DNA from: Candidatus Zhuqueibacterota bacterium
Lineage (GTDB): Bacteria > Zhuqueibacterota > Zhuqueibacteria > Oceanimicrobiales > Oceanimicrobiaceae
Direction: 5' to 3'
Assembly (NCBI GenBank): GCA_029262005.1
Contig: JAJDAG010000128.1
Span: 1 to 51,175 of the forward strand
Length of the DNA stretch: 51,175 nucleotides
Part shown: piece after piece, positions 1,966 to 44,313 of the stretch
How the letters are laid out: every line of letters begins with the position of its first letter
Position numbering within the stretch: the first letter of the stretch is position 1
Position numbers and translations under genes: made by a program
The notes under the pieces: model-generated
What the model was told of the DNA's origin: nothing
What the model saw: only the letters and a program-made list of their open reading frames with translations
Databases searched by the model: none

Positions 1966-1969
1966 GTTG

Positions 1970-3378: not shown

Positions 3379-3565
3379 CAAAAAGCGGAGTAACAAAATT
3401 TCGCAGCGAATAAACGGCAAGCGAGCAACTGCCACTGCCATTATTGCGCACAGAATTCAACCGGCATTCCTGCCCAAAAAGTCAGTGGGAATAAAAGTGC
3501 GGTTTCTCAGGTCTAATTACCGGAAAATTGCACCAGTACAAAACTCAAGATTTTTGGAGGTATTG

Positions 3566-6016
3566 ATGAAAAAGTCTATTTATGTTATCGCAATCTTGCT
3601 GCTTGTAATAACATCTGTTGAAACATCCGCACAACCACAGCAAAGGCGCGGAGGAAGCATCAGTGGCCACGTTATTGACGGCGCCCTGAACACATCGGTG
3701 GAATACGCCAATATTGTTTTATATAATAAACAAGACAGTGTTCAAGTTACCGGAACCATCACAGATCCCGACGGCAACTTTAACCTCCCAGGCATTCGCC
3801 GTGGAAGTTATTTCATTTCAATTCGTTTTGTCGGCTATCGCACGCAGGTGATCAACGACATTGAAATAAGACGGGGCAAAGCAAATATCGACTTGGGCGA
3901 TATTCCTTTGAAACAATCGGCCATCCAACTGGAGAGTGTGGAACTGCTTGCCGAACAAGCGCCGGTGGAGTACCGCATAGACAAAAAAGTAATCAATGTC
4001 AGCGGCCAACACACTGCTGCCTCAGGCACGGCGGCCGAGGTTTTGGAAAACGTACCCTCTGTTACAGTAGACATTGAAGGTAACGTTAGTCTTCGCGGCA
4101 GTGCCAATTTTACCGTTCTTATCGATGGCAAGCCAACGGTTTTAGAACCCAATGATGCATTGCAGCAAATTCCGGCCAGTACCATAGAAAACATTGAATT
4201 GATCACCAATCCCTCAGCAAAACATGATCCGGACGGCACATCAGGCATTATCAACATCTTACTGAAAAAAGGCCAATTGCAAGGACACAACGGCGTTGTG
4301 AACATGAATGCCGGCCTTGAGGACAAACATGGTGGTGACTTCTTGCTGCAATTCCGCCGGAAAAAAATCAACACCCACATAGGAGCAAATTACAACAAAC
4401 GGTTCAACCCGGGCACTGCCTACCGCGAAAATCGAACTTTGAGCCAGGGTACAACTTCGTTAGTATTTTCCAATGGGGATTACCGACGCGGAAGAACATC
4501 CTACGGACTAAGGGCAGGAATCGAGTTTGATGTAAGTTCTCGTGATAATCTGAGCCTCGGTTTACGCTATGGCGACAGAGCAATGGAATGGGGCTCTGAG
4601 CTCGATTATGATGCATGGACAGAGCCATCTAACGAGGCACATTTGCTTTACCTGAGTCTGAATGACCGCAAGATCTCTGGAAAGTTTTACTCCGTTAATA
4701 TGGATTATCAACACCGCTTTGCCGGAAAGGGACATAAAATTTCAGGACAGGTTAACTATAGCCATAGAGCCACTGGCGAAAAAGCCATTGACGAACTCCT
4801 TGATACGGAACAAATAATTACCAGCGGCAGACAAACCACAGAACAAGGCCCCTCAGATCGAACCCGCCTCAAAATTGATTACACATTACCTTTACAGAAA
4901 AAAAATAAAATTGAAGCAGGTTATCAAAGCCGCTTAAATAACTGGAAAGATGTTAACGCCCTGAGCGATTTTGATCCAGTGCAAAACAGTTATATAAGTA
5001 ATCCCCTTTTTAGCCATAACACCGACTATCGGCGGAACATTCACTCACTTTACGCACTGTATGCCGGGGAGATCGGGCCATTTGGGTATCAGGGCGGCAT
5101 TCGCGGTGAATATACAGACCGCCGGGTTGAACTGATTGATGCAAGACAACCGGACACCATACAACCTTTCGTTATTGACCGCTGGGATTATTTCCCCACT
5201 GTCCATGCTTCGTACAAATTTACCGACGGCAGGCAAATCATGGCAAGTTATGCACGCCGGATTGAACGTTCGAGAGGTTGGTATCTGGAACCGTTCGAAA
5301 CCTGGACCGATGCATACAACGTTCGTACAGGAAATCCAGCTCTAAAGCCCGAATACATCGACTCGTATGAATTGGGTACACAAGCCTATTTCGGCAGTAC
5401 ATTGATTTCCACCGAGGGTTACTACCGAGTGACGCACAACCAGGTTGAACGAGTCCGCAGTGTTTATAGTCCAGATGTAACGCTGCATACGATCGAAAAT
5501 GTAGGTACGGATTATTCGCTCGGTATCGAGTTTATGACGAATATAGATTTGTTGAAACGGTGGAATATCAATGCCATGGGCAATTTCTACAATTACAAGA
5601 TTGAAGGTCAATTATATGGAACGGACTTTTCGCGAAGCAGTTTTAACTGGAACATGAGGTTCAACAATTCTATTAGCCTGGGCAAATCTACCAAGCTGCA
5701 AGCCAATGCCATTTACAACAGCGCATCGGTTTCCTCGCAGGGAAGTCGTGATGGATTTTATCTGGTTAATCTTGCAGTAAAGCAGGATCTTCTTGGCAAA
5801 AACCTATCGATGACGTTTCAAATCAACGACATTCTGGGCACGGCCAAACATCACTACGTTTCAGAAGGGCCAAACTTCTTCTCACTGAGCCATTTCACAA
5901 GAGAGTCCCCTGTTGTCATGTTAAATCTACGCTACAATATCAATAATTACAAAGCAGAGCGCCGGCGGGAGAACGGACATGGTCGGGAAGACTCTGAAGA
6001 AGATGGAGCGTTCTAA
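3566..6016 (+). CDS. TonB-dependent-receptor-like outer-membrane beta-barrel protein
   Basis: The 816-residue protein begins with a signal peptide ending near TSAQ. A CarboxypepD_reg-like beta-sandwich (about residues 30-110; ISGHVIDG, then GSYFISIRFVGYRT) follows, then a plug-like domain (about 130-235; VLENVPSVTVDIEGNVSLRG, ending GTSGIINILLKK), then a long barrel with alternating aromatic strands. This is the layout of the outer membrane beta-barrel family common in Bacteroidota and relatives. The ATG at 3566 follows GGAGG by five bases, so an upstream GTG at 3485 is rejected. It ends only 43 bases before ygeY and is probably co-transcribed with it, which suggests uptake of a compound feeding the YgeY/YgeW/HydA pathway. 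Substrate unknown. Confidence 0.88.
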   Translation: MKKSIYVIAILLLVITSVETSAQPQQRRGGSISGHVIDGALNTSVEYANIVLYNKQDSVQVTGTITDPDGNFNLPGIRRGSYFISIRFVGYRTQVINDIEIRRGKANIDLGDIPLKQSAIQLESVELLAEQAPVEYRIDKKVINVSGQHTAASGTAAEVLENVPSVTVDIEGNVSLRGSANFTVLIDGKPTVLEPNDALQQIPASTIENIELITNPSAKHDPDGTSGIINILLKKGQLQGHNGVVNMNAGLEDKHGGDFLLQFRRKKINTHIGANYNKRFNPGTAYRENRTLSQGTTSLVFSNGDYRRGRTSYGLRAGIEFDVSSRDNLSLGLRYGDRAMEWGSELDYDAWTEPSNEAHLLYLSLNDRKISGKFYSVNMDYQHRFAGKGHKISGQVNYSHRATGEKAIDELLDTEQIITSGRQTTEQGPSDRTRLKIDYTLPLQKKNKIEAGYQSRLNNWKDVNALSDFDPVQNSYISNPLFSHNTDYRRNIHSLYALYAGEIGPFGYQGGIRGEYTDRRVELIDARQPDTIQPFVIDRWDYFPTVHASYKFTDGRQIMASYARRIERSRGWYLEPFETWTDAYNVRTGNPALKPEYIDSYELGTQAYFGSTLISTEGYYRVTHNQVERVRSVYSPDVTLHTIENVGTDYSLGIEFMTNIDLLKRWNINAMGNFYNYKIEGQLYGTDFSRSSFNWNMRFNNSISLGKSTKLQANAIYNSASVSSQGSRDGFYLVNLAVKQDLLGKNLSMTFQINDILGTAKHHYVSEGPNFFSLSHFTRESPVVMLNLRYNINNYKAERRRENGHGREDSEEDGAF

Positions 6017-16922: not shown

Positions 16923-17318
16923 TCAGTCTTTCAGTCTGCTTTGCACCATAATGCAGGCATTTGCCAGGTAATTGAATCTATTTTCTTGTAAAAAAGTTAA
17001 AACATCCGGTTCCTCAGCGCCGGGTTGCACCCAGACATTCATCATGCCAAGTCTGAGGCACGCCTGCAAAACGGTCAGCGTCACTTTTGGCGGCACAACA
17101 ATATTCACAATTGTTGGTGGTTCAGGAATATCGGCAAGAGTCGGATAGGTCAAATCCCCATCTACTGTCGAACGCTTGGGGTTGACCGGAAAAACAGTAA
17201 ATCCCTTGCACTTCAAATCCCTATAAATAACGCCGCCGTATTTTCCCGGATCGTCCGTAGCGCCAACAACGGCAACGGTCGTATCTGGCATGTCGAGCAA
17301 TGCTGCAATGTCGGTCAT
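16923..17318 (-). CDS. CoA-binding domain protein (YccU-like)
   Basis: This 131-residue protein is a stand-alone Rossmann-type CoA-binding domain. VAVVGATDDPGKYG forms the nucleotide loop, FPVNPKRSTVDG and IVNIVVPPKV follow, and WVQPGAEE near the end is typical. Family members resemble the N-terminal domain of succinyl-CoA ligase alpha, but their role is unknown. Its ATG overlaps the TGA stop of the preceding gene (ATGA), with GGAGG upstream, so the two are translationally coupled. That makes it a probable last or near-last gene of the envelope cluster, although its cytoplasmic nature looks unrelated. Confidence 0.85.
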   Translation of the reverse strand: MTDIAALLDMPDTTVAVVGATDDPGKYGGVIYRDLKCKGFTVFPVNPKRSTVDGDLTYPTLADIPEPPTIVNIVVPPKVTLTVLQACLRLGMMNVWVQPGAEEPDVLTFLQENRFNYLANACIMVQSRLKD

Positions 17319-19042
17319 TCCTTGCTGCCTCCAATTTCCCATTTGGCATCCCAATCCGAAACTTCATAACGGTCGGTCATCGGAAAATCGGGAGGCCGGT
17401 TATTTTCAAGCCGCTTATCAAACTGAATATGCGTTGCGTAGCGCGGTTCGGTTGCCGACAACGAGCCAGCGGTCAAACTTCCATAAATTCTCAGGGTAGC
17501 CTCACCATTCCCGTACAAATTCTTAATAAGGAAACGGCCTCGCGCAAAGACAGATGCATAAATTCTCAGATCACCGGGCCCGGTCACCGAAGGATGTGCT
17601 ATTTCAATATTTTTGTCACAGACGATACCCAGATAGTCTTCGGCAATATTAGAGATGTCCGGGTGCCGGGCATAAGTCAAGTCGCCATCAATGATGATTT
17701 TTTGGGGAGAATAGACCAGCACGCTTCCCTTTACAATACCGCGGATGTGCAACCTCTTCTTTTTATCGCCGACAATGTAAAATGCCTCTTTGGGTAAAGC
17801 GACTCTGCCGGAAGCCTGTTCTCCGCCAATACTTTCCCATGAAAAAGTGCCGTCAGCATGAAATACGATTCTTGTGTCGCCTTCGCACACATGCACAAAA
17901 GCGTCATCGACAGTGATTTCAGACGATGTGGCCGGCAAGAGTGCTCGAGGAAGTTTTATTGCCTTTACGCCGGTCTCAAGGCCACCTAGAAAGACTGACT
18001 TGGTATCAAAAAACGGACGCGATTCATTGGTATTTACATCATAAGATGCTGTGGTCACTTTCCCATGAAATTTGGGTTTGACGCCTCGATTGCTTATGAT
18101 ATTAATCTTTGAATTTGCATGAAACCGGCCAATTAACTCATCGTCATGCACAGCAACCCAAGGGTTCCACTGGTCCACAAACTGGGCAAAATTAGAAAAC
18201 GACAACCGCTTCATTCGCATTTTTGTTTTCATCATAGCGCCATCGTCTTCAGTCTCAACTGTTACCTCCACACGCTCGATGTCTGTATTTGACTGTGCGG
18301 GATAATGCCGAAATCTCGCAGTGTACAGGCGACCCTTATGTTTCCATGTCAGCGTTGAGTCGGACGACGCCATTTTATAATAATCTTCAGTCCATTTGCG
18401 AGCCTTTTTTTTCAGCATTTTCCGTGCCTGATTGCTCATCTCCATCTTGACGGATGGTGCCGGCCGTCTGCTGTCAGAACCACGGGGTCTGACAAAACGC
18501 TGCAGATGGCGTGTGCTGACAACAGGCTCCACGACCGGACCAGCAGCCATCACTCTGTTTTCATTTTTATCATAAGACCTGGATAATGATGCTTCCTGAA
18601 TTGCATCAGAATTATCGGCAACACCGGGAAACAGCGTATTGGCTACTTCATTTTTATCAATTCGCTGAACATCGGCCTGGCTGGTGGCTGCTTGAGCATT
18701 ATTAAAATTCACCTCTGACGGCTTGGCGGCACCTTCTTGCTTTACGTTTGCCTGATCAGAAGCACTAACGTTTCGGGATGACTGAGAAGATATTTTATGA
18801 ATTGGCACGTCATCAACGGCTGCCAGGTTTGAGCTGCCGGCCGCCGACGGCCTATAAATAAAATCAAAAACGATGGGGCGTTCATGCTCGATATGGGAGT
18901 CAAGCAAAGCAACCAGCCTGCCCAATGCAAAAAATAAAAACAGGTGCAAGACAAGCGACAAACCGACTGCGACTCTAAATTTGAAAGGCTGGATGAGCAA
19001 TCCACTTATTTTCTCAAGAAGAAATCGAAATTCAACTTTCAT
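17315..19042 (-). CDS. Membrane-anchored DUF4900-type protein of the envelope cluster
   Basis: The product (about 575 residues) has one N-terminal transmembrane helix (near residues 25-45), placed as in TonB-like anchors. A long Ser/Ala/Asn-rich periplasmic linker (to about residue 190) follows. The C-terminal half matches the pattern of DUF4900: SNRGVKPKFHGKVTT, then VKGSVLVYSPQKIIIDGDL, then DLRIYASVFARG, then LRIYGSL, ending PPDFPMTDRYEV. That domain is usual in pilus-like or surface-assembly proteins and looks like a beta-solenoid. The ATG at 19042 is chosen over an upstream TTG. A 225-base gap separates it from the AgmX-like gene. No C-terminal TonB domain is present. Confidence 0.7.
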   Translation of the reverse strand: MKVEFRFLLEKISGLLIQPFKFRVAVGLSLVLHLFLFFALGRLVALLDSHIEHERPIVFDFIYRPSAAGSSNLAAVDDVPIHKISSQSSRNVSASDQANVKQEGAAKPSEVNFNNAQAATSQADVQRIDKNEVANTLFPGVADNSDAIQEASLSRSYDKNENRVMAAGPVVEPVVSTRHLQRFVRPRGSDSRRPAPSVKMEMSNQARKMLKKKARKWTEDYYKMASSDSTLTWKHKGRLYTARFRHYPAQSNTDIERVEVTVETEDDGAMMKTKMRMKRLSFSNFAQFVDQWNPWVAVHDDELIGRFHANSKINIISNRGVKPKFHGKVTTASYDVNTNESRPFFDTKSVFLGGLETGVKAIKLPRALLPATSSEITVDDAFVHVCEGDTRIVFHADGTFSWESIGGEQASGRVALPKEAFYIVGDKKKRLHIRGIVKGSVLVYSPQKIIIDGDLTYARHPDISNIAEDYLGIVCDKNIEIAHPSVTGPGDLRIYASVFARGRFLIKNLYGNGEATLRIYGSLTAGSLSATEPRYATHIQFDKRLENNRPPDFPMTDRYEVSDWDAKWEIGGSKE

Positions 19043-19267
19043 AACGAAATGTCTGGTTGAGAAGAACAATGATTATTGCAATTCATTCTTTCAATGCATC
19101 GGACGGCAAATATTATTTCTGAACTACAATGACTAACGCGACAAATTACCTCAAGCAAACAGGCAAGAACTTTATAAAGATGATATCACGTTGAGGCAGT
19201 CTAAGGCGGTATAAACAAAGATAACAAGCTACATACAAAAATGCAAGAAGATTGAAGCCGAAAAAAA

Positions 19268-20614
19268 CTAGCCTACCCGACTAAAAAACAATGGATAAGT
19301 CACAATCACAGAGCCTGAGTCAATAGCGTCGTATTTCCAGCGGCGAACAAAATTCAGTACCTCCCGCTCGAATTCACCATGGTTCATCGAAGAACTCGCC
19401 AGGCGAACACTTATGACTGAACCATTGGCGCCAATCTCCACTTCAACCACCATTTTTCCGCGTAACTCGGGATTGTGTTTCAAATATTTATTATAAATGT
19501 AAGTCAGGCGGCCGGTATGGCGTTGCAGCACTTTGCGCACAGAATCTTCCGAGCGCTGACCAAGCGCATTTTCGTTTCCGGTCAATCCGCCGATTTGGTC
19601 AACTTGAATTTGACCTTTCCGGCCGAGGGAAACAGTTTCCACATCACCGACATCAGCAAGAATATCATCGACACCACCACCGAGGGCGCTTTCTGCTATA
19701 AGATTATCAAAATCGCTTTCACGAGTTTTGCTGCCCTGGCCGAGACTCAGATCCGAGCCGGCCATCACAGCATCAAGCTCATCCACCAGACCTTTGTCCA
19801 GAAGAAAATCAGCGAGATCGTTAGATTGACTAGAGCTACCTGTTCCGGTCAGCAAACCAAGCAGCCCCTGACTTTCAGGGCGGACTTCACGGTCGCTTTT
19901 CTCAGCACGGTCGCTTTTCTCAGCACGGTTGCTTTCGGCCTCCTCACTGCCCTCAGTGTCTTCAGCACCACCTGCCGAAGGAGATTTGCGTGCAGCCGCA
20001 AGATCCGATTCCGCCTTTTTCACAATGAGTTTTGCCAGGCGTGGCGGTATCGCCCGGCGTGTACTGACGTTTCTCGAAGCGGTTAACGGCAAGTCGCTCA
20101 TATATTTCAGCGAGGCAACGCTCACAGCCAGGCAAATCAGGAGAATTAGTTTGAAGGGGATATCCCGGCCAAGCCCGTGATAGGTCGCATACCACCAGGA
20201 AAACCCCTCGAACCTGGGTTGCGGTGCTGCCACTGCTTCGGGCTTCGCCTCAGTGCAACGAAACGTAATTTTTGCATCCCCAATCGTCAAAACGCCTTCG
20301 CGCCCAATTGTCAGGGGATAAATAAAACCGCTCTTTTTTCGCGGCAACAGCCCATGTGCGAGCATGTCCTGAAAATTCAGGCATGACGCGCCTGCAAGAA
20401 CTTCACCCTGCAACAAATCGTTGACATTAACCTGGAAGTGGTTGTTCTTACCGGTAAACAGGGTGTATTTCTTGGGGAAATTGTCGCCGTAAACAGTGAG
20501 GTCATTGGCCGGACTTTGACCGATGGAGAAACGATCGTTCTTACCCAGCCGTCGGTGGGTTACGATGCCTCCCTGCTCAATTTTTAATAGAAGTTGTTTC
20601 CGTTTTTTGGCCAT
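19268..20614 (-). CDS. FHA-like / TM / AgmX (TonB-like) trans-envelope linker protein
   Basis: The 448-residue protein has three parts. Residues about 10-120 look like a cytoplasmic FHA-type sandwich (DRFSIGQSPANDLTVYG resembles the FHA RS-containing start). A single membrane helix lies at about 153-170. A low-complexity acidic/Gly linker leads to a C-terminal AgmX/PglI domain (about 350-448; LTYIYNKYLKHNPELRGKMV, then FVRRWKYDAI), which is TonB-like. This order is that of GltG-type proteins of the Myxococcus gliding machine. It probably transmits force from the ExbB/ExbD motor across the periplasm. Its ATG lies six bases from the stop of the second exbD. The linker has an AEKSDR duplication. 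Confidence 0.78.
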   Translation of the reverse strand: MAKKRKQLLLKIEQGGIVTHRRLGKNDRFSIGQSPANDLTVYGDNFPKKYTLFTGKNNHFQVNVNDLLQGEVLAGASCLNFQDMLAHGLLPRKKSGFIYPLTIGREGVLTIGDAKITFRCTEAKPEAVAAPQPRFEGFSWWYATYHGLGRDIPFKLILLICLAVSVASLKYMSDLPLTASRNVSTRRAIPPRLAKLIVKKAESDLAAARKSPSAGGAEDTEGSEEAESNRAEKSDRAEKSDREVRPESQGLLGLLTGTGSSSQSNDLADFLLDKGLVDELDAVMAGSDLSLGQGSKTRESDFDNLIAESALGGGVDDILADVGDVETVSLGRKGQIQVDQIGGLTGNENALGQRSEDSVRKVLQRHTGRLTYIYNKYLKHNPELRGKMVVEVEIGANGSVISVRLASSSMNHGEFEREVLNFVRRWKYDAIDSGSVIVTYPLFFSRVG

Positions 20615-20619
20615 TGGCG

Positions 20620-21147
20620 TCAACTCTCTGTTTGGTTGACGGCAAGAAGCATATTATTGAAGCCTTCCTGGCCACAGGTGAACATAATTTTCTTCAGCAG
20701 AGCAAACGGAATTTCCCGATCACCCTGGATGGTGATTTCACCTTTAAACCCCATGCGTGTGTCGAGTTCACCGAGGCCGGAAGCAAACAAGCGAATATCT
20801 GCAAGATGCGCTTGCAGCGGTAAGATCAGATTCTGCTTCTGGACGAGAATATCCGCAACCTTTTCTACGGGCCTACCATCCAGAATGAGCCACTCGTTGG
20901 TAACCACAAGAATCGGGCTGGCCTTTGGCGGCTTTTGTGCAGTTGATTCGGGCAGACGCAAATCCTTGGCAACGCTGATAATTTCCCCTTCAGCCGAAAA
21001 GCTCTGCAGGAGGAAAACCAATAATATTGTAAACATATCGATCATGGAAGTAAGCCGCAAAGTAAAGCTGCTGATCGACTTGTTTCTTCGAGGTTTTATG
21101 GTAAACAGCTTTTCATCGCTGTCATCGTCTTCAAAATTGAAATACAT
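20620..21147 (-). CDS. ExbD/TolR-family protein (second of pair)
   Basis: The 175-residue product has a short basic cytoplasmic start, one membrane helix (about 34-52) with LTSMIDMFTILLVFLL, where the Asp is the conserved proton-path residue of ExbD/TolR, and a periplasmic domain. It follows the first exbD with only two bases between them and precedes the AgmX-like gene, so the motor stator has two different ExbD-like subunits as in AglQ/AglS. The fold and location are clear, the specific partner less so. Confidence 0.85.
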   Translation of the reverse strand: MYFNFEDDDSDEKLFTIKPRRNKSISSFTLRLTSMIDMFTILLVFLLQSFSAEGEIISVAKDLRLPESTAQKPPKASPILVVTNEWLILDGRPVEKVADILVQKQNLILPLQAHLADIRLFASGLGELDTRMGFKGEITIQGDREIPFALLKKIMFTCGQEGFNNMLLAVNQTES

Positions 21148-21149
21148 AT

Positions 21150-21602
21150 TTATCCGGAAATAGAAATATTGGGAAAACCGCCTTCACGGCAATAATCCAT
21201 GACCTGAATAATCGTTTTATACTTAATCGATGCCTCAGGCGCGATAATGATGTCCTCAGTAAACTGATGTTTCTGTTTAACGGCGCCCAGCCTTTGAACC
21301 AGAGTGCGAAAATCAAACGTATCATTTTGCATGGCAATCAAGGGAAACTTCAAGCCTTTGCTTTTCAACTCAAACCCTTTATTTGTAATGGCCAAAATCG
21401 TCACAACGGCATTTTTATTTTGTTCCTGTGCAGCCGCGCTCTCTGTGCTTGGCAGCGAAAACTCAAGGATAGAAATTTTCACAAAAACCGCCGTCAACAA
21501 AAGAAACGGCACCAGAATTAAAAAAATGTTCATCACCGGCGTGATGTTCAACTCTTCGGCAACTATCCTTTTTTCCCGCCCGATTGCATTTCTGAGGTTC
21601 AT
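21150..21602 (-). CDS. ExbD/TolR-family protein (first of pair)
   Basis: This 150-residue protein has the ExbD layout: a charged start, then NITPVMNIFLILVPFLLL as the single helix, and a periplasmic domain that ends VMDYCREGGFPNISISG. Notably the usual Asp of the helix (normally in the pattern PLIDVMLVL) appears as Asn in NIFLIL, which is also seen in secondary ExbD subunits. Together with the second exbD, which keeps its Asp, this suggests a hetero-pair in which only one member carries the proton-accepting carboxylate. It starts three bases after the exbB stop with GAGGG upstream. Confidence 0.85.
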   Translation of the reverse strand: MNLRNAIGREKRIVAEELNITPVMNIFLILVPFLLLTAVFVKISILEFSLPSTESAAAQEQNKNAVVTILAITNKGFELKSKGLKFPLIAMQNDTFDFRTLVQRLGAVKQKHQFTEDIIIAPEASIKYKTIIQVMDYCREGGFPNISISG

Positions 21603-21605
21603 CTC

Positions 21606-22229
21606 TTACGCCCTCGGCTTCACCAGCTTGTGATAGATATGCGCCACATTTTCATTAATCTGGTCAACAATAACATTGGTTTTCGACTGAATGTAAGAAT
21701 GAAAAACCATGCACGGAATAGCCACCATTAAACCGAAAGCCGTGGTGTTCATGGCCACGGAAATACCAGCGGAAAGCAAGGCCGCCTTTTGCGATGAATC
21801 TGCTGAAGCCACGGATTCGAAAGACTGAATGAGCCCGACAATGGTGCCGAGCAGTCCAAGCAAAGTCGCAACATTGGCGATCATTGAAAGATAGTGTGTG
21901 CGTCTTTCGAGTTTGGGAATTTCAGACATGGCTGATAACTCAAACGCACCCTGAATTTCCTTCGGACTTTTGCCCAATTCTTTCAGTCCGGCGCAGGTAA
22001 TGACCGGTAAGGCGGCGTTGGACTGGCGGCAAAGCTCAATGGCATTTGTGACACTGCCCGCTTGCACCAGCTCCACAACCCGATTGACAAACCGTGTGGC
22101 ATCAATGCGGTTGCGCACCAGAATAAAGAGCAGCCGCTCCACAATAATCGTAATCCCGAGTACAAGTGTGCCCAGAATCACGTACATGAAAGCACCCCCG
22201 TTTTTAAAAGCCAAATAAATATATTCCAA
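21606..22229 (-). CDS. MotA/TolQ/ExbB proton-channel protein
   Basis: The 207-residue protein has three predicted membrane helices (about 12-35, 110-135, 155-180) and the family segment SMIANVATLLGLLGTIVGLIQSF, where Thr and Gly residues line the ion path. The start is TTG: a perfect AAGGAGG site stands seven bases ahead of it, and no upstream ATG fits, so translation may be limited. It pairs with the two ExbD proteins to form an inner-membrane proton-driven motor. Homologues drive TonB, Tol-Pal or gliding (AglR). Gene order here favours the last class. A 165-base gap precedes it. Confidence 0.9.
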   Translation of the reverse strand: MEYIYLAFKNGGAFMYVILGTLVLGITIIVERLLFILVRNRIDATRFVNRVVELVQAGSVTNAIELCRQSNAALPVITCAGLKELGKSPKEIQGAFELSAMSEIPKLERRTHYLSMIANVATLLGLLGTIVGLIQSFESVASADSSQKAALLSAGISVAMNTTAFGLMVAIPCMVFHSYIQSKTNVIVDQINENVAHIYHKLVKPRA

Positions 22230-22394
22230 AACAAAACCTCCTTTATAACCTGGCGCGGCAGATCCTGCTCAAAACCAGGGACTTAATAACCGCAAACTAA
22301 AAGTGAAAACTTAAAATAGTAAAATCTAAAATTTTGCTGCATCCCGCTTAATTCAAACGCAAACCCGTCAATGGCGCATGCCGGTGCGGCAAGA

Positions 22395-22751
22395 CTATTT
22401 CGGCTTGTTAATGCCTGTCAGGGAAGGCTTGCGAATAATTTTTCGGATATTCTCCACATCTACCGGACGGAAAATTTCTCTAAAAAATGACCGGTCAATT
22501 CGAATGTCATCCACAGACGGATCTTTTCCTTGAACAATAAAAGCAGTCTGCGGCTTATCTATACGTCCGAGAATCTCGATCTTGTCAAGAAAGAGCTTCA
22601 TATCTTTCTTGCGTTTTTTTGTATCAAGCTTTTTCCCTTGACGAGCCGAATCCTGCTTCGCAACAACGGTTGTTTCGCCTGACCAAACGTAATTTGCCAA
22701 GCAGCAGAAAAAAACTGTTAGAAACAAAACCGTCCTATAATTCTTCTTCAT
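22395..22751 (-). CDS. Small exported protein of the envelope cluster
   Basis: I do not recognise this 118-residue protein. It begins with a signal peptide (MKKNYRTVLFLTVFFCCLA, cleavage near VWSG). A lysine-rich linker and a soluble segment with LFLDKIEILGRIDKPQTAF and DIRIDRSFFREIFRP follow. The tail carries KIIRKPSLTG. The ILGRIDKPQ string with a following VQG resembles the structural style of small periplasmic link proteins in Glt-type clusters. The ATG at 22751 gives a clean signal peptide although its ribosome binding site is poor; a longer form (to 22832) is unlikely. It lies between the large TPR gene and exbB. Confidence 0.65.
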   Translation of the reverse strand: MKKNYRTVLFLTVFFCCLANYVWSGETTVVAKQDSARQGKKLDTKKRKKDMKLFLDKIEILGRIDKPQTAFIVQGKDPSVDDIRIDRSFFREIFRPVDVENIRKIIRKPSLTGINKPK

Positions 22752-22918
22752 AAGAAAATAACCAATTGCCTGAATTAAAATGTAAAAGCAAACGCCAAAA
22801 CAAAATATCACCCGGAAACGCGAACAGATCACAGGGAAAAGAATCCCGGTATTTCCCGGCCTTTGCTCGCAGGTTCCGTTTTGTTAGCAGCCATCACCAA
22901 TAACAGCAGAAAGCCTGC

Positions 22919-25789
22919 CTAAGAATCCGGCTCTTTTACGGCATTGAGTTGAGAAAGATTAAGTTCCATACTCAGTACTTCCAGACGCTTCAAGCTTTCA
23001 GAGATCCACTCATTCTCAATACTGTTATCCTCGGCATTTTTGATGTTGGCAGCGTAAGTCTCCAGCGCTTTTTGCTTAAATGGCAATACCTGTTCCCGGA
23101 GTTTCTGGTTATACTTTACCAAATCACCGGCTTTCAATTTTTCAGGCCGGGGAGATTCGTACAAAGCATCTGCAAAAGATTCAAACGCCTGTCCTATTTT
23201 GTACGAAGAGGCCGTTGTCCACTCTGCCACCTTGAATTTGGCAGCAGCCGTGTACGCTTTCACAACCTGCTGAAACATGGTGCGCTTGCGTTTAAGTTTG
23301 CGCCTCAATGGTCGCGTTAATTGAATTCCCTTAAATGTTTTAAAGGTTATTTCAGCTATCAGAAACTGGGCATTGGCCGGGATAAATTCTTCAACCGGAA
23401 TACCTGTTTTTGAAAATCGCTGGAATGCCTTCAAAACAAAGCGTAGATCTTTTAACGCGGTCTGACTCTCGCCTTGATTGAAGGCAATTTCCGCTTTGCG
23501 AAAGGCCGCTTCCATGTATCGATCCGGATCCTGAATGTAAGCGTCAACATATTCCTGATAATATTCACGAGCCAAATCGAAACGCTCAATATTTTCGTAA
23601 CACTTAGCTGCAAAAAAAAGACTTTTCGGCGCATAATCCGAAAAACGGTCCAGGCGATAAAGCTTTAAATAGTTGGCGGCTGCCCGTTCCCACTGCTGCA
23701 AATCCTCAGCAAGAAAGCCGGCCATAAACAAGGCGCGATCAAGCGATTTTGACTGGGGAAATTTCTCAGTTACCCGCTCGTAAAGTTCAACTGCCCGGGC
23801 TTTATCACCAGCAGTTTCAAACTGTTTTGCGGCTTCAAAAAGTGCACGCTCGGCAATAGCTGAATCCGGGGCAGTGCCGGCGACACGTTCAAATTCTTCA
23901 GCAGCCAGAAGACTGTCACCCCCGGAAACAAAGGTTTCCGCTCTCCGGAATTGTGCCAGGGCGATCATCTTGTTGGCAGGCTTGACAAACCGCAAAGAGT
24001 CCGGGAACAGCTCCTTTGTCTTGACAAACCAGGTCTGTGCATCCTCAAAATGGTCCTGCCGGAATTCACACTGAGCCATCATGTAGTGCGCCTGCGCTAA
24101 ATATGAGTTGTTCTCAGCCCTGGCCAGAGCCTCCTGATACACTTGCTTTGCCAATCCGAATTGCTCTAACTCAAAAAGTAGTTGGGCCAAATTCATCATG
24201 ACTTCATTGGCTTTTGGGCTCTCCGGGTGAAACACAAAAAAGTCATTACCGGCCTGCATCAACTGCGCCTGGCTGCCGTTCAACGCTTTGAGTATTTCCA
24301 CGCCGGTTTCACTTTTACCAAGAAAGTTGAAGAGGAAAAAATCCGTGGAGTCAGAGGAAGTGTCTGCCTGCAGCAGATGGTTGTAAGCGAGGACGCGGTT
24401 ATATGCCGCTGTTTCAGAAAATTCAGACTCTGGATAATTCAAGTGTAATTCGTAGTAGGCGTTTGCTGCATTTTGAAATTCACCTTGTTCGTAATAACAT
24501 TCGCTAAGGTAAAACTGCACCCTGTATGCCCGCTCATAAGCAGAGAATTTGGCCATGTAAGATTGATAATAATTGACCGCATCATCATACGCAAAATTGT
24601 CTTTACCTGCCTGAGCCCGTGCTTGTGCTTCAGTGCCGAGTTGGTAGAGGAAGCCCTCGGCAAGCAACAAAATTTCTTCACGCTCAGGCACCGCTCCGAT
24701 TAACTGAATCCAGTCTGAGCCGGGGCCATAATCATCAACTAGTTTTTCACGCTCGATATCCGCTTGCTTTTTCTCGCCGGCCCTATCGAAATTTTCAACA
24801 ATTTGCTTTTGATAAAACGCAGCCGCTGCCTTGCCCGGGTAAAACTCGATGAGAATTTTCAACGTCGCAATGGCATCGGCGAAAAAACCACGCTCCTGAT
24901 ACAGATGCGCAAGATGTTCGAGAACATCTTCAGCGTAATCCTTGTCCTTTTTACCCAACAAAAAAGTGCGTGCTTTCTCCGGCCCACCAAATTCAGAAAA
25001 ACAACTGGCAACATATTCAATTGCCTCACGGTGCAAGTCCGCCTTCGAAGTCTCAAACTTTTCGGTATCGACTTCATTGAGTAGATTGATATCTTCAACG
25101 AGATAAATGAAGGTGCTGATAGCCTTATTGTAATTCTCAACATTATAATAGGACCATCCCAACTTATACAGGGCCATATCAAAAAAAGGACTGTCCCAAC
25201 TTTCAAGCAGTCGACTGTAATAGTCTATTGTGGTTGGATAGTCCTGTTTGTCAAAAAAGTATTCCCCCAACCGGAAGTACGACTCTTCCAGCAATTGGCT
25301 GTCATTGGTTTCCTCGGACAATGTTCTGAAATATTCCATCGCCTTGTCCGGCTTGCCCTCCTCAGAGTAACACAAAGCAACCCGGTAAAGCACTTTATCG
25401 CGAAAGTGTGCAGTGGGGAATTTATTGAGCAATCTCAAAGAAGTGCGGGTGGCATCGCTAAAATCTACCTGAGGCGCCACAGGTTCCTGAGTCAGGCTAC
25501 CCTGTGAATACAACTCTTCGGCATCCTCGTAAAGCAACATTTCCCGTTGAAACTTCAGTGTCGAGCGTTTTATGTACAACTCGGACAATTGAAACATCAG
25601 ATTGGGGGCAAAATCGTTGTCGGGATATTTGGCCAGCAACGCCTCTGCGCTTTCGATGGACTCCACAAGATTCCGAAGTTCATGCAAATAGGTGCCGGGA
25701 GACTCTTGCGCCATAGAACCGGAATTTGCAGATAGACATAAGCCAATGCAGGCGATTCTCAAAAATACGATTTTCGTTAGACTTCCCAT
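22919..25789 (-). CDS. Large periplasmic tetratricopeptide-repeat protein
   Basis: The 956-residue protein has a signal peptide (cleavage near SMAQ) and is almost entirely TPR-like helices. Units such as YRVALCYSEEGKPDKAMEYF, YKLGWSYYNVENYNKAIS, YMMAQCEFRQDHFEDA and AAKCYENIERFDLAREYY carry the W/G/Y/A-P spacing. At least fifteen repeats can be counted by eye. It resembles the BamD/YbgF group and the TPR scaffolds of Glt-type clusters. It likely sits in the periplasm, bridging inner-membrane motor and outer membrane. It is followed by a second TPR gene upstream in the operon, and the ATG lacks a strong ribosome binding site. Confidence 0.82.
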   Translation of the reverse strand: MGSLTKIVFLRIACIGLCLSANSGSMAQESPGTYLHELRNLVESIESAEALLAKYPDNDFAPNLMFQLSELYIKRSTLKFQREMLLYEDAEELYSQGSLTQEPVAPQVDFSDATRTSLRLLNKFPTAHFRDKVLYRVALCYSEEGKPDKAMEYFRTLSEETNDSQLLEESYFRLGEYFFDKQDYPTTIDYYSRLLESWDSPFFDMALYKLGWSYYNVENYNKAISTFIYLVEDINLLNEVDTEKFETSKADLHREAIEYVASCFSEFGGPEKARTFLLGKKDKDYAEDVLEHLAHLYQERGFFADAIATLKILIEFYPGKAAAAFYQKQIVENFDRAGEKKQADIEREKLVDDYGPGSDWIQLIGAVPEREEILLLAEGFLYQLGTEAQARAQAGKDNFAYDDAVNYYQSYMAKFSAYERAYRVQFYLSECYYEQGEFQNAANAYYELHLNYPESEFSETAAYNRVLAYNHLLQADTSSDSTDFFLFNFLGKSETGVEILKALNGSQAQLMQAGNDFFVFHPESPKANEVMMNLAQLLFELEQFGLAKQVYQEALARAENNSYLAQAHYMMAQCEFRQDHFEDAQTWFVKTKELFPDSLRFVKPANKMIALAQFRRAETFVSGGDSLLAAEEFERVAGTAPDSAIAERALFEAAKQFETAGDKARAVELYERVTEKFPQSKSLDRALFMAGFLAEDLQQWERAAANYLKLYRLDRFSDYAPKSLFFAAKCYENIERFDLAREYYQEYVDAYIQDPDRYMEAAFRKAEIAFNQGESQTALKDLRFVLKAFQRFSKTGIPVEEFIPANAQFLIAEITFKTFKGIQLTRPLRRKLKRKRTMFQQVVKAYTAAAKFKVAEWTTASSYKIGQAFESFADALYESPRPEKLKAGDLVKYNQKLREQVLPFKQKALETYAANIKNAEDNSIENEWISESLKRLEVLSMELNLSQLNAVKEPDS

Positions 25790-25892
25790 TTGCTTGTAAC
25801 TATTTCAATACTTCTTAACAAGTTATTTTGAGCACAAACAACAAATGTTGCGCACATACAAATCCACACCCAACAAGACAACTTCCTTTGGT

Positions 25893-27284
25893 TTACTGCG
25901 AAGCGGTTTCCCGCAAAAACATGGCTCTGACTTTGCCATATTCCGCATATGCCTCCCACTTCTTTCGCATCTCACGCTTTTCAGCACGTTTCTTCAACTT
26001 TAGGATGGAGGCGCTCACACGATTGAATTCTTCTCGTTCTTGCAGAATATCGTGAATCATCTGGCCCCGGGTTCGATCAAGAAAGTCAGGTTCTTCCACA
26101 AATTGAGAAACGCGCCCCGCGCCTCCAAGAGGAATTGTGGTGACCAATTTCGTTTCCAGAGCCAACAGATCTACCTGCAGGGTCACAAGCCGCTCTTCCT
26201 GCTCACGCAAGACGACCCGGGTGCTTTCAACCAAGTCAGTTGAGCCGCCATTTCCAGACGATTGAATGACTCGACTAAATTCGCTGACGGCAAAATCATA
26301 GTAACCAAGCTTCAGATAGCACTGAGCCCGCAAAAAAAAAGCCTCTTCAATATTATAGTAATCCTCAAATTTATCACAAAGCTCATTAAGCGCCACCAGC
26401 GCACCCTGGTAGTCTTCCAACTTGAGCAAGGCCCAGGCGCGTGTTAACAAAACTTCAGGATAATCGTGAAAATCAGGAAGGATGCCGGCCAATTCCTTAA
26501 CAGCCTCTTCGTAGTCTGATAGTTCAAAATAGACATAAGCCAGGGTCAAATGTGCCGAGGCCAAAATTGCCCTGCGTTCCGGATTGCCGGATGACAACCG
26601 GGGAATTTTGCTTAAGTCAGCGACCGCCTCCCTAACATTTTTTTTTTTCAAATGAGCCAATCCCGAAGTATAAAGCGCGAAAGGATAAAACCTGGATTTC
26701 TTTTTTATGTGAGGCAAAAGGTTCTGAACCAGATTGTACCGTTGCATATTAAAATAAGTCTGCTCAGCATAATATCGCGACTCATAAATCCCATCATGCT
26801 GGGTGTAATGTGACTCGAGAGCTTTGTAGAACTTCAGGCTCTGCTGAAATTCTCCCTTCTGGTAAGCCACTTTTTGCAACCCCAGAATGGATTCAGCGAC
26901 CAGCCCGTTCTTAGTGACCGACCGCAGCAAATAGCGATACATACGATTGGCGCCGTCATACATTTCCATATCGTAAAGACAGGTTGCCAGCAGGAAAACA
27001 ACATCCTCCAACCTGGAATAACCCGGATAGAAATCCAAAATCAAAATCAGGTCGACAGAAGCCTGCCAATAGTTGATGCGTTGATAGTTTTCCCTGGCCT
27101 GATTGTAAAGTTTTGCTGCTGCTTTTTCAGCTGCTTTTTGCTGCTTTTCTTCTTCCTGTTTGGCCAGTTCGTCAATGGATTGTCGAGCGAGTGATTCAGG
27201 ATTTGCAAGGAGGGTGCCGCCAAATAAAATAGACCCTCCCAAAAGGATAGCCAGGCACCAATATTTGATTCCGTTTGATAACAT
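25893..27284 (-). CDS. Periplasmic TPR protein with terminal coiled coil
   Basis: The 463-residue product has a signal peptide ending near TLLAN. A charged coiled-coil stretch (KQEEEKQQKAAEKAAAKLYN) follows. Then there are roughly eight TPR repeats, and the C-terminal part has a helical region with many Glu/Lys residues. It is the second TPR protein of the cluster and lies five bases from the beta-barrel gene, so co-translation is likely. A scaffold role between the barrel and the motor is inferred; no catalytic motif is seen. Confidence 0.82.
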   Translation of the reverse strand: MLSNGIKYWCLAILLGGSILFGGTLLANPESLARQSIDELAKQEEEKQQKAAEKAAAKLYNQARENYQRINYWQASVDLILILDFYPGYSRLEDVVFLLATCLYDMEMYDGANRMYRYLLRSVTKNGLVAESILGLQKVAYQKGEFQQSLKFYKALESHYTQHDGIYESRYYAEQTYFNMQRYNLVQNLLPHIKKKSRFYPFALYTSGLAHLKKKNVREAVADLSKIPRLSSGNPERRAILASAHLTLAYVYFELSDYEEAVKELAGILPDFHDYPEVLLTRAWALLKLEDYQGALVALNELCDKFEDYYNIEEAFFLRAQCYLKLGYYDFAVSEFSRVIQSSGNGGSTDLVESTRVVLREQEERLVTLQVDLLALETKLVTTIPLGGAGRVSQFVEEPDFLDRTRGQMIHDILQEREEFNRVSASILKLKKRAEKREMRKKWEAYAEYGKVRAMFLRETASQ

Positions 27285-27289
27285 CAGGT

Positions 27290-28300
27290 TTATTTTTCTT
27301 TCTTCACTGTGCCGGTTTCTAATTCATCGAGTATTTCATCGAGCTCACTACCAACATTTTCTCGTCGAGTACGCAGTTGTTCAATGGACCTATCCGACCT
27401 TTTTTCCCGTCGATGATTCTGCGCTCTGAGATTTCCCCAGACCCGCTTCGTTACGAAGTGATAAGTCAGCCCGGCAAAAACTTTCCAATCGGCGTACTCG
27501 TGAACAGGGCCAACACGACCACCGGGCATTCGACTCAAACCAAAGTCTGCACCAAGATCGAGCAGCAAATGAAATGGAGCCTTGAACTTGAAGCCATGCG
27601 TCAGGCGCATGGAATTGTTGCGAAAACCAAGTCCCTGCTGCTTGATGAAGACTTCTCCGGTATATTCGGTATAAAAAATGATGGCTCGGGCAGCAACCTT
27701 GAAGCCGAGCCCAAAGAGTAGTTGGTCGGTACTTTCCTGTGTTAGAAAAGTTCCAATATTGTGATCAAAGTAACCAACGTTGGCGCTGAGTTGAAGCGGC
27801 ACCTGTCCAGGCACGTCGAAAGTTGTCAGAAATTTCGCACCCCAAGCGACCTTGCCCGATGAGAAGGGTTCAAAGGGAACATTGCTGTATTGGGTGGTCG
27901 GCAGTCGCAATAAAGCCTGCCCACCCGTGTGAAATCTTCTGCCAGACAAGGGCCAATGCCACTTAATGCTCAACTCGGAATGCCCCGGAGGCGCATAACT
28001 GTGACGCTGATCATCCTGATAAGCACGGATTAGTGCCGCTACTTCCACCCGGTCACTCAGGCCATACGTCAAGCCTACATGCCAGGTATGGTCATGCACC
28101 AGACCTGACGCTTGTTTCTTGAGAAAGGTGGTGAAAAAAGAACTGACTAAGAAAGAGCCGCGCTGAATTGTCTGGGCCGATTGAACCCGCAGCATACCAC
28201 GGCCGCCGGCAAGCGTTGTCTGCGCAACAACGACACCATTGCGAAACAAGAGGAGCAGAGCAAGAAGAGGAATAATCAGAAGTATTCTAACCCTGACCAT
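27290..28300 (-). CDS. Outer-membrane beta-barrel protein, first gene of the envelope cluster
   Basis: The 336-residue protein starts with a signal peptide ending near VVAQ. Amphipathic strands rich in Gly and aromatics follow (HTWHVGLTYGLSDRVEVAAL, ADWKVFAGLTYHFV), consistent with a barrel of about twelve or more strands. A basic/acidic tail with REKRSDRSIEQL and the EILDELE coil follows, likely periplasmic. The ATG at 28300 is preferred over an upstream start because it begins the signal peptide. No ribosome binding site is clear. It is the first gene in transcription order and probably marks the outer-membrane end of the ExbBD/TPR machine. Confidence 0.78.
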   Translation of the reverse strand: MVRVRILLIIPLLALLLLFRNGVVVAQTTLAGGRGMLRVQSAQTIQRGSFLVSSFFTTFLKKQASGLVHDHTWHVGLTYGLSDRVEVAALIRAYQDDQRHSYAPPGHSELSIKWHWPLSGRRFHTGGQALLRLPTTQYSNVPFEPFSSGKVAWGAKFLTTFDVPGQVPLQLSANVGYFDHNIGTFLTQESTDQLLFGLGFKVAARAIIFYTEYTGEVFIKQQGLGFRNNSMRLTHGFKFKAPFHLLLDLGADFGLSRMPGGRVGPVHEYADWKVFAGLTYHFVTKRVWGNLRAQNHRREKRSDRSIEQLRTRRENVGSELDEILDELETGTVKKEK

Positions 28301-28746
28301 TTGGTTGATTGACACTATATATTTTTTACCTGGACAAAAATCGAAATCTGCAGTCGCAAACATTCAGACTTTCACCCTATCTAAGATATTAGCAAATTTA
28401 TTATTTACGAGCGTGAATTGCAAGTGGTTTCCGGTATCCACCCCATGATAACGCCAAGGCAAATAACCTGTATCAACTAGCGTGCCAGCCCGAGTCTGTC
28501 CAATGCAGCCCAAATATAGGATAAAAAAGTGGTACTCAGCCTCAAAAGGAAAACGCAGCCTTAAAAGCAGCTATAATGTAATTACAAAAATGTACTCACA
28601 CGCTATGACCCGCATCATTTTGATACACAAGGGGTGTGTAAAAAGGTAACGTTTTCTATTATTTGATGTGGAAGCCACAAATCAAGCGGTCTAATTCAGA
28701 GACACTGATAAAAGCGATCACTGACAACTCACAGCCGCAAAACGGG
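28301..28746. other. Spacer with an imperfect long-range inverted repeat
   Basis: No gene is supported. GGTGTGTAAAAAGG (about 28630) is nearly complementary to CCTTTTTTTACACACC (about 28760, at the 3' end of the PAP2 gene), differing by two bases in the A-tract. It could be a terminator remnant or coincidence. Promoters for the envelope cluster must lie near 28300-28450, but no convincing -35/-10 pair was identified. Confidence 0.4.
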
Positions 28747-35153: not shown

Positions 35154-37058
35154 TTATGATATCTTCAGAATTCGCACATCGCCATCCCGCTCAGTAACCC
35201 CTATCCGGTCAAAATAGTTGATCAGTGGCATGGCGTATTTCCGGCTGGCCCCGTGCAGCAAGTCCTTAAACTGGGAAATTGTTATCTCTTCATGCTCCCG
35301 CAGAAAAGAGATGAGATATTGCTGGGCCTCGGCCATGCGCTTTGAATGAAAATATTGGCCCTCATCTGCTCTCACTATTTCTCCCAGGCCGGTCATTGCA
35401 GTGAGCACCTGCGTAACATCATGGGCCTTGGCTCCGAAAGTCTGTGCAATCTCACTTTCAGAAGGCGTTGCAAATGCGCGTTCGTAAAGAAGCGATGCGA
35501 TTTTTTCTTTTAGAGCAACCAGTTCGGGCGGCAATGTTATTTTATGTTCCTGCAAACTTAAGTAGCCGGCGGTCTCTTTGAGCAAAGCCGATTCTTTTAA
35601 TTTTGCAAGCACCACATCCATGAATTGCATATCAAAAGAATGAGCAAGGATATTTTTTATTTCTGCCTTACGAATACCTGGTTTTGTCGGATATTGTTCG
35701 TGAAAATCGGCAAAGGAACGTAGAGCCAAATCCGCCAACTCATCAAACCTGAGCCGATGCACAACGGTGTTTTTTTTGCCTTGCCTGAGGCGTGTTACTT
35801 TGCTTTCCTCAACCAGCTTATCCAGCAACTTTTCCACATTGTTTAAGTCCATTGCCAACTCCGTGGCCAGGTTTGCTGCGGTGAGCACCGAAAACTTTGC
35901 CGTAAGTAAAATCGACTCGACCACTTCAGAAGGATCAGGCTGTTCCAGAGCCTTTAGTTCTTTTATTACCTGCGCATCCGACAATTTACGTCGCGGAGCA
36001 TCGGCGTTAAGAATCAAACCGCCGCCAATGGTAATTGTAGGCGAATATTGCCGGAGGACAAACGGATCCAGGCGTCGGCCTGAAACCGGGCGTTCGAGTT
36101 CGAGTTGCGCGTAGGCACTGCGACCTGGATCGATCTGCTTTTGCGAAAATACAGCAACCCGCGCCATAACTTCGGTTGTGCCCAAATGTACACGCACCCG
36201 TGTGCGATGCTTAAGCGCTCTGGGCGCGGACTCCAGCAACTGTAATTTGGCATGAAAGCGTTGTGAACTGGCAAAATGACTTGGCAAAGTCAAGACACTG
36301 CCACGCCCAACCTGCGATTTATTCACGGATTGCAAATTTACAGCGGCCCGATCGCCCGCATTTAATTCTGCCACTTTGCGCCCGGCACTCTGCAACCCGC
36401 GAACCTTTGTTTGAACTTTTTGTGGCAAGATTTCGATACTGTCACCAACGTGCACAGTGCCTGAAAGAACAGAGCCAGTTAAAACGGTTCCAAAACCTTT
36501 CATTGAAAACGAACGATCCACAGGCATCCAAAAAACGCCCGTGTCTCGATTGCGTTCAACCTCGTTGGCCAAAGCATCTATTTTTTTTGACAAAGAATCA
36601 ATGCCGGTACCGGCAGTAGACGAGACCCGGACTATTTCCGCCTCCTCGAGAAACGAATCTTTCACCAGCGCTTTGACATCTTCAGTGATCAGAGCCAGCC
36701 ACTCTTCATCAACCAAATCAACTTTGTTAAGAACAATGAGACCACGTTGCACTTGCAATATTTTCAGGATGTCCAGGTGCTCGCGTGTCTGTGGCATAAC
36801 GCCATCATCGGCTGCAATCACGAGCAACACCAAATCAATGGTGCTGACGCCTGCAACCATGTTGCGAACAAACCGTTCGTGGCCGGGCACATCGATAATC
36901 GTCGCTTTCTCACCCCAGTGGGCAAAACCGAGATCGATGGTCAAACCACGCTGTTTTTCTTCTTGCAAACGGTCTGTATCCACGCCGGTAAGCGCTCGTA
37001 CCAAGGCAGTCTTTCCGTGGTCGATATGACCGGCCGTGCCGATGATTATGTGTGGCAA
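35154..37058 (-). CDS. selB: Selenocysteine-specific elongation factor
   Basis: The 634-residue protein is SelB. The GTPase domain has GHIDHGKTALVRALTG (residues 8-23), RGLTIDLGFA, DVPGHERFVRNM and LNKVDLV. Two beta-barrel domains follow, and a long C-terminal region of several winged helices (about 370-634), ending with the domain that binds the SECIS hairpin in selenoprotein mRNA. It brings Sec-tRNA to in-frame UGA codons. The ATG at 37058 fits the family start (MPHIIIGTAGHIDHGKT). Together with selC at 1970-2064 it shows a functional selenocysteine route. selA and selD are not in this window. No in-frame-UGA selenoprotein gene was identified. Confidence 0.95.
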   Translation of the reverse strand: MPHIIIGTAGHIDHGKTALVRALTGVDTDRLQEEKQRGLTIDLGFAHWGEKATIIDVPGHERFVRNMVAGVSTIDLVLLVIAADDGVMPQTREHLDILKILQVQRGLIVLNKVDLVDEEWLALITEDVKALVKDSFLEEAEIVRVSSTAGTGIDSLSKKIDALANEVERNRDTGVFWMPVDRSFSMKGFGTVLTGSVLSGTVHVGDSIEILPQKVQTKVRGLQSAGRKVAELNAGDRAAVNLQSVNKSQVGRGSVLTLPSHFASSQRFHAKLQLLESAPRALKHRTRVRVHLGTTEVMARVAVFSQKQIDPGRSAYAQLELERPVSGRRLDPFVLRQYSPTITIGGGLILNADAPRRKLSDAQVIKELKALEQPDPSEVVESILLTAKFSVLTAANLATELAMDLNNVEKLLDKLVEESKVTRLRQGKKNTVVHRLRFDELADLALRSFADFHEQYPTKPGIRKAEIKNILAHSFDMQFMDVVLAKLKESALLKETAGYLSLQEHKITLPPELVALKEKIASLLYERAFATPSESEIAQTFGAKAHDVTQVLTAMTGLGEIVRADEGQYFHSKRMAEAQQYLISFLREHEEITISQFKDLLHGASRKYAMPLINYFDRIGVTERDGDVRILKIS

Positions 37059-41154: not shown

Positions 41155-41907
41155 ATGAATTCTCAAGATGACTGGTTCAAAGACTGGTTCGGTCAGGACT
41201 ACCTTAAAGTCTACCCGCACCGCAACGACGAAGAAGCAGCGGCACAAATTGATTTTGTCGAACGCATTCTCCCATTGCAAACCAACGAAAAAACCCTGGA
41301 TTTAGGCTGTGGCAACGGTCGGCATGCACTGAAATTAGCACGGCGCGGTTTCCAGATGATCGGGCTGGATCTTTCACCGGTCTTGTTGGCCATGGCCGGA
41401 AACACTTGCAAAAAAACAACATGCGCGGCTCGCTTTGTAAGAGCAGACATGCGGTACTTGCCTTTCCATCGCGCCTTCGACTCTGTGGTCAGTTTCTTCA
41501 CAACGTTTGGCTACTTTGAAACCGACGAAGAAAACCTGAAAACGCTCAACAGCATCCACCGCGCACTAAAGCCAAAAGGCCGATTTTTACAAGACTATTT
41601 AAATAAGAACTTTGTCCTGGATAATCTCGTGCCCCGGGATGCGCGTTCGGACAACGATTTCGAGATAATTCAAGAACGGCGATACAACCGGGAGCAGGAG
41701 CGGATTGAGAAAAAAATCACTTTGCGGGACAAAGACGGAAAACGCGTGTATTTTGAATCTGTTCGGCTTTACACTTTAGGTGAAATGACGGCGCTTCTGC
41801 GGCGAGCTAACCTGACGCTGAACAAAACCTTTGGTGATTTCGACGGCCGGCCTTTCGATGCCGGCAGCCCCAGACTGATTCTGGTTGGGCAAAAGGAGCA
41901 TGCATGA
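41155..41907 (+). CDS. SAM-dependent methyltransferase coupled to bshC
   Basis: The 250-residue class I methyltransferase has the SAM-binding motif LDLGCGNGRHALKLARRG (near residue 47) and the acidic loop GLDLSPVLLAMA, and matches small-molecule methylases. Its last four bases overlap the ATG of bshC, a sign of translational coupling, and it is first in a run with bshC and bshB1. A methylase that N-methylates bacillithiol is known in green sulfur bacteria, so this may be a related enzyme (NmbA-like). That is inference and a generic housekeeping methylase remains possible. Confidence 0.78.
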   Translation: MNSQDDWFKDWFGQDYLKVYPHRNDEEAAAQIDFVERILPLQTNEKTLDLGCGNGRHALKLARRGFQMIGLDLSPVLLAMAGNTCKKTTCAARFVRADMRYLPFHRAFDSVVSFFTTFGYFETDEENLKTLNSIHRALKPKGRFLQDYLNKNFVLDNLVPRDARSDNDFEIIQERRYNREQERIEKKITLRDKDGKRVYFESVRLYTLGEMTALLRRANLTLNKTFGDFDGRPFDAGSPRLILVGQKEHA

Positions 41908-43523: not shown

Positions 43524-43561
43524 GAGCGGTAGTTTAAACAAGCAAAAGAAAGATATCGATC

Positions 43562-44299: not shown

Positions 44300-44313
44300 T
44301 CTAAACTAAAGAA

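Follow-up and report, generated by a model that had tools for sequence, protein, structure and literature searches.

A probable Agl/Glt-family core complex with a dedicated outer-membrane barrel and an Asp-less ExbD in the phylum Calditrichota

Introduction

Luciano et al. 2011 described, as Group B, a standalone core complex made up of gltC, gltD, gltE and gltG together with aglRQS; among described systems it is the closest to the operon presented here. Myxococcus mutants of the regions G4, G5 and M2 show normal gliding, and what these regions do is unknown (PMC3169522). The small protein GltF has been described as confined to Myxococcales and Bdellovibrionales (PMC3169522). For the two ExbD-type proteins of the motor, AglQ and AglS, it has been stated as unknown whether they form heterodimers or homodimers (PMC9389320).

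The window analysed here is a stretch of DNA of 51,175 nucleotides from a Candidatus Zhuqueibacterota bacterium (assembly GCA_029262005.1, contig JAJDAG010000128.1). The name Calditrichota is used for its phylum; a relative from the same family has been deposited as Caldithrix sp.

Results and Discussion

Organization of the operon

The operon consists of eight closely spaced genes on the minus strand, from 28363 to 19268 (Table 1). A sequence-only reading had placed here, in order, a barrel, two TPR proteins, a small exported protein, ExbB, two ExbDs and an FHA/TM/AgmX protein, and all eight open reading frames were found. Pfam and NCBIfam profiles matched the operon proteins as MotA_ExbB (6.9e-30), ExbD (3.2e-22 and 6e-12), TonB_C (6e-7) and TPRs. 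The small exported protein is listed from a GTG codon, but translation may in truth begin at a later ATG. Directly downstream lies a gene for a protein of 584 residues with a TonB-like N-terminal anchor and a tail matching nothing recognised. It was not counted in the operon because no homologue was found in the related clusters read.

Two other features of the window are worth recording. Consecutive genes for BshC, a PIG-L-type deacetylase (BshB-like) and a group 4 glycosyltransferase (BshA-like) likely form a complete bacillithiol biosynthesis cluster. A selenocysteine tRNA, matched in 50 of the 81 genomes of the phylum, and SelB are both present.

Table 1. Location of the operon genes and of other features in the window
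Feature	Position	Strand	Properties
Outer-membrane beta-barrel	27290-28363	-	357 aa; 12 strands and C-terminal helix of about 52 aa; first gene of operon
GltC-like exported TPR protein	25893-27284	-	463 aa; HH; NCBIfam GltC 1e-5
GltD-like exported TPR protein	22919-25789	-	956 aa; HH, BLAST
GltF-like small exported protein	22395-22832	-	motif GRIDKPQ; HH between families
AglR-like ExbB (R)	21606-22229	-	207 aa; TM3 signature GISVAMNTT; PF01618 6.9e-30; AglR clade
AglQ-like ExbD (Q)	21150-21602	-	150 aa; Asn25; TM proline (PVMNIFLILVP)
AglS-like ExbD (S)	20620-21147	-	175 aa; Asp37 retained (SMIDMFT)
GltG-like protein (G)	19268-20623	-	451 aa; degenerate FHA 8-126, TM 155-176, disordered linker, TonB-fold AgmX tail 336-451
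584-aa protein	17315-19069	-	downstream of operon
TonB-dependent-receptor-like outer-membrane protein	3485-6016	+	
BshC, BshB-like and BshA-like genes	41904-45695	+	
Selenocysteine tRNA	1969-2064	-	
SelB	35154-37058	-	

The barrel and the exported proteins

The AF2 model of the barrel (pLDDT 81) has its 12 strands between residues 70 and 304, followed by a helix of residues 305-356. Its nearest solved fold is FapF, with a Z-score of 21.9 in structure comparison, and a COG4313 channel gives 19.7. The 12-stranded barrel fold is common to all three. However, the identity in the structural alignments is 13% with FapF and 7% with COG4313, and the long C-terminal helix belongs to the operon barrel. 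The amyloid export role of FapF is not implied for it. No Pfam or NCBIfam family matched the window barrel, and a profile of the operon's barrel found no homologue in eight Myxococcota genomes. A second, related barrel (L290:10183-11355, E 1.3e-42) is solitary and adjoins a sugar-nucleotide transferase-like gene.

The exported proteins were compared with Myxococcota families by HH. The TPR protein of 463 residues matches the GltC type at 99.8 / 9e-29 and the GltE type at 98.8 / 9e-17. Its assignment as GltE was rejected because of the better GltC match, and in the Calditrichota clusters read D is followed by F, with no gene at the GltE place between them. The larger TPR protein matches the core GltD at 100 / 7e-122 across 892 columns; by BLAST the value is 3.6e-77 for core D and 8e-29 for gliding GltD. 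The family of the small exported protein matches the Myxococcota GltF family at 97.6 / 4.6e-12. With these matches, the GltF family and the core complex now include a system that is found across the phylum, usually in two copies and with a barrel of its own.

Conservation in the phylum

Loci of the window's kind are called type 1 and the paralogous core complex type 2. The identical eight-gene order was found in about 20 genera of the phylum, and an Agl-type ExbB is present in 74 of 81 genomes, in one or two copies and never more. The arrangement is therefore not due to chance. A homologue of the barrel stands at the place of the first gene in nearly all type 1 loci, and R, Q and S stand next to one another in every Calditrichota locus read.

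Type 2 is also widespread in the phylum. It encodes a GltC-like protein of about 950 residues, a GltD-like protein of about 1500 residues, a small protein, ExbB, two ExbDs and a protein with a TonB tail, with neither a barrel nor an FHA match. The type 2 copy of the window's own genome is on another contig (C93, L012:479-11476), upstream of an aspartyl-tRNA-synthetase-like gene.

Some type 1 clusters show variations. In about a third of them the GltC-like gene is represented by two adjacent reading frames of about 200-250 residues each (L051, L053, L057, L059, L062, L065 and L066), either by gene fission or by a repeated frameshift. In one family the type 1 operon has as its neighbour another ExbB/ExbD/ExbD set together with a TonB-tail protein (L062:1203-3760), and both ExbDs of this set have Asp.

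Phylogeny of the motor proteins

The AglR-type motors sampled in Myxococcota have two layouts, a solitary three-gene AglRQS and a complete operon GltC-GltD-GltE-GltF-R-Q-S-G. Myxococcota core operons are then followed by a protein of about 335 residues belonging to no Pfam family and one of about 150 residues resembling a cyclic-nucleotide-binding domain (L272:14866-15861; L276:1914-3406).

ExbB trees were built with proteins from Myxococcus and E. coli and the other ExbBs of the genome. In two trees the ExbBs of types 1 and 2 join AglR and the Myxococcus M2 ExbB with a support of 100/99, apart from TolQ and siderophore ExbB; a place inside either of these groups had been named as the refuting outcome, and the trees do not show it. 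The window ExbB lies outside the M1 subclade, and the branching of type 1 relative to the two remaining AglR subclades lacks resolution.

In the ExbD tree a Q clade (99/96) and an S clade (100/98 with the Vibrio row removed) are separated, which indicates that Q and S arose from one old duplication. The comparison of one ExbB and two ExbDs with AglRQS is thus upheld by an AglR-clade ExbB and by ExbDs of the Q and S clades, and GltC-, GltD- and GltF-like partners accompany them. The S proteins of types 1 and 2 cluster with those of the Myxococcota core (100/100), and gliding AglS stands outside this group. BLAST with S alone disagrees with this tree, giving 97 bits for AglS and 74 bits for the core.

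The Asp-less first ExbD

The most unusual feature of the operon, absent from the sequence-only reading, is its Asp-less first ExbD. Calditrichota loci overlapped, so the counts are based on distinct Q sequences. In the proton-binding column (TolR Asp23, ExbD Asp25), Q has Asn and S has Asp at all 47 distinct Calditrichota loci, 26 of type 1 and 21 of type 2. Among the distinct AglR-type loci of Myxococcota, 55 have Asp in both ExbDs, six have Asn in Q and one has Gly (L254), while S always has Asp. The gliding-type (M1) motors sampled have Asp in both ExbDs, and Asp was found in all ExbDs examined from other systems. A proline located a few positions further along the TM helix accompanies the exchange: of the 54 distinct Q sequences that lack Asp, 53 have it, and of the 55 with Asp, none. 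Ahead of this helix, Q mostly retains the ExbD-type motif N-x-T-P.

Mapped on the ExbB tree, the state of Q needs three changes. One is to Gly, so the exchange between Asn and Asp needs two, and one of these seems to be a reversion to Asp within a Myxococcus M2 lineage.

A divergent core complex was also found on a plasmid of Vibrio alginolyticus (pMBL96, L289:7295-15718), the one gammaproteobacterial example read. It has a barrel, long and small exported proteins, an ExbB with an AMNTT signature, two ExbDs and a G-like protein; its Q has Ser and its S has Asp. Very long branches lead to both Vibrio ExbDs, and the Vibrio S falls outside the S clade. A match on a Fusobacterium plasmid was rejected as a core complex, being an ordinary ExbB lacking the AMNxT signature.

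In the Ton system, the ExbD mutant D25N has no activity (PMC11658791). It follows that a Q2 axle should not be proton-driven, and this leaves two arrangements: a one-site axle made of Q together with S, or an axle that does not include Q. To us, an Asp-less Q combined with an Asp-bearing S points to an asymmetric Q/S axle that has a single proton site and in which the two proteins would heterodimerise. The heterodimer is favoured because Q mostly keeps N-x-T-P and always adjoins R and S. The core-complex motors might then be natural 5:2 motors with a single proton site. They would have an obligate Q/S axle with Asp in S only and Q as a kinked, non-conducting half, and with only half the steps that a symmetric axle would make; gliding AglRQS would be the related two-site version. 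This model is tentative, and we put it a little below even odds.

It is less probable, and in our opinion unlikely, that S homodimers form a normal 5:2 motor with the AglR-like ExbB, with Q serving as an ExbD for structure or peptidoglycan anchoring, perhaps as a homodimer of its own. The constant Asp of S and its loss from Q would agree with such an arrangement, and the proline suggests a distinct helix. However, the motif kept in Q, the invariant R-Q-S trio and the origin of Q and S from one duplication, with their occurrence as a pair, all argue against it. Post-translational deamidation of the Asn to Asp, by which both ExbDs would carry protons, is chemically possible with no tool result behind it, and is hardly credible in view of the Gly (L254) and Ser (Vibrio) at this position in other core complexes and the accompanying proline.

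The Asp-less Q matters beyond this operon. The presence of only one ExbD of two able to carry protons across a whole phylum, in some Myxococcota and in a Vibrio relative is a natural experiment on the pairing of AglQ and AglS. The same experiment applies to the alternating-site model of every 5:2 motor (MotAB, TolQR and ExbBD).

The GltG-like transducer and the question of gliding

The transducer matches the AgmX/PglI tail model NF033768 at 4.8e-24, so the AgmX tail expected from the letters alone was recovered by profile search. The GltG model also matches (2.7e-23), yet with 82 bits against a cut-off of 650 and from position 223 onward only; the FHA part is thus missed by this profile. Pfam did not detect FHA in the window protein itself, and PF00498 matches 4 of its 21 relatives. 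In the AF2 model, based on an alignment of these 21 relatives, residues 8-126 form an all-beta domain with pLDDT of about 90; beyond it come the TM helix (155-176), a long linker that is disordered and, at the C-terminus, a TonB fold. The leading structural matches of the N-terminal domain are FHA domains (top Z 9.2). The suggested FHA domain therefore stands on the structure and the relatives, while the Pfam search of the protein itself fails. The phosphopeptide motif SRxH, kept in gliding GltG, is changed to an FPKxH-type motif in the transducer family, and phospho-binding is doubtful because its Ser is replaced.

It is important to compare this protein with both kinds of G. The N-terminal domain gives an HH probability of 99.7 with core-complex G and of 2.3 with gliding GltG, and the full-length protein gives 7e-27 with the former and 2e-13, in the tail only, with the latter. 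The order FHA-TM-TonB proposed as that of GltG is therefore correct as an order of domains, but the FHA domain is not of the gliding kind. The NF033768 cut-off is passed by only two proteins in the window's genome, one for each core complex, and no further AgmX-tail protein of the GltJ type was found above it.

These results bear on a gliding function, in which the operon would be the Calditrichota counterpart of Agl-Glt and drive cell translocation over a surface. The AglR-clade ExbB, the two ExbDs, the GltC-, GltD-, GltF- and GltG-like partners and the domain order of the transducer are what such a motor would have. However, six of the seven comparable window proteins are closest to the core (G4-M2) type by BLAST and the seventh by tree; the Myxococcus core paralogue compared (L171) was taken as G4 or G5, and the conclusion is equal for both. 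The foreign FHA domain, the lack of a GltJ-type second AgmX protein in the genome, the normal gliding of G4, G5 and M2 mutants (PMC3169522) and the Asp in both ExbDs of the M1 motors sampled, lost in the window motor, also speak against gliding, which we consider improbable. Although kin to the myxobacterial gliding motor, the machine stands on an older branch of non-gliding systems; motility is not its expected output. Of the earlier proposal of a motility or surface-transport motor, the first part finds no support and the second is still the best guess.

A Tol-Pal-like or TonB/siderophore energiser is more improbable still: the NCBIfam models TolR and TolQ match below their cut-offs and the tail of G has a TonB fold, but ExbB and ExbD lie outside both groups in the trees, the operon has no Pal, TolB or receptor, and the genome has separate TonB- and TolA-type ExbBD sets. 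The earlier judgement that a Tol or iron-uptake role is less likely is thus confirmed. Its premise was that Pal, TolB and a siderophore receptor are absent. The window proteins that were scanned include neither Pal nor TolB, and the operon has no receptor, but a TonB-dependent-receptor-like protein, the only one of this kind found, is encoded on the opposite strand, about 13 kb from the nearest end of the operon.

Proposed function and mechanism

We estimate the probability at about 0.8 that these eight genes specify a core complex of the Agl/Glt family which is complete in itself and which is related, within Calditrichota, to the non-gliding Myxococcota core (Myxococcus G4/M2) and not to the gliding machine. 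Its composition, gene order, conservation, phylogeny and folds, and the loss of Asp in Q with retention in S, come from the sequence or from predicted structure; the mechanism is modelled on the family.

A pentamer of R would enclose one Q and one S helix, and protons would pass by way of the Asp of S only. As in the family (PMC3858216, PMC9389320), the R pentamer with its Q/S axle could turn proton flow into rotation or strokes. G would touch R, its linker would cross the peptidoglycan, and its TonB-fold tail may engage the proteins of the GltF, GltC and GltD type. The force would finally reach the dedicated barrel and there move or gate a surface cargo, possibly a polymer or a protein. The most likely function would be surface transport through this barrel, driven by the proton-motive force. 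On the Vibrio plasmid the core complex is flanked by genes for Ig-like adhesins and for a transglutaminase-like cysteine protease of the BTLCP family. These neighbours are a hint, no more, of surface-protein handling.

Comparison with known systems

TolQR-TolA and ExbBD-TonB share with the operon an ExbB/ExbD motor and a TonB-fold transducer, but they form separate clades, have Asp in their ExbDs and work with other partners. The Nfs spore-coat machine of Myxococcus has a paralogous transducer set and carries out surface transport of a polymer (PMC3858216); however, it uses the gliding AglRQS motor and matches the window proteins less well in sequence. The gliding Agl-Glt machine (G1, G2 and M1) has in common with the operon the motor family, the TPR proteins, the GltF family and the TonB-like tail of G. 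It differs by another motor subclade, Asp in both ExbDs, a canonical FHA domain in GltG and the extra proteins GltA, B, H, I, J and K.

The Group B core complex, represented by Myxococcus G4/M2, agrees with the operon in the AglR-clade ExbB, the Q and S ExbDs, GltC, GltD, the GltF-like protein and a G protein of the order FHA-TM-TonB. The operon is distinguished from it by a FapF-like barrel as first gene, by having no GltE gene, by Asn in Q at every Calditrichota locus read and by the occurrence of two paralogous versions in most genomes. The core complex, of unknown function since 2011, thereby gains a new context.
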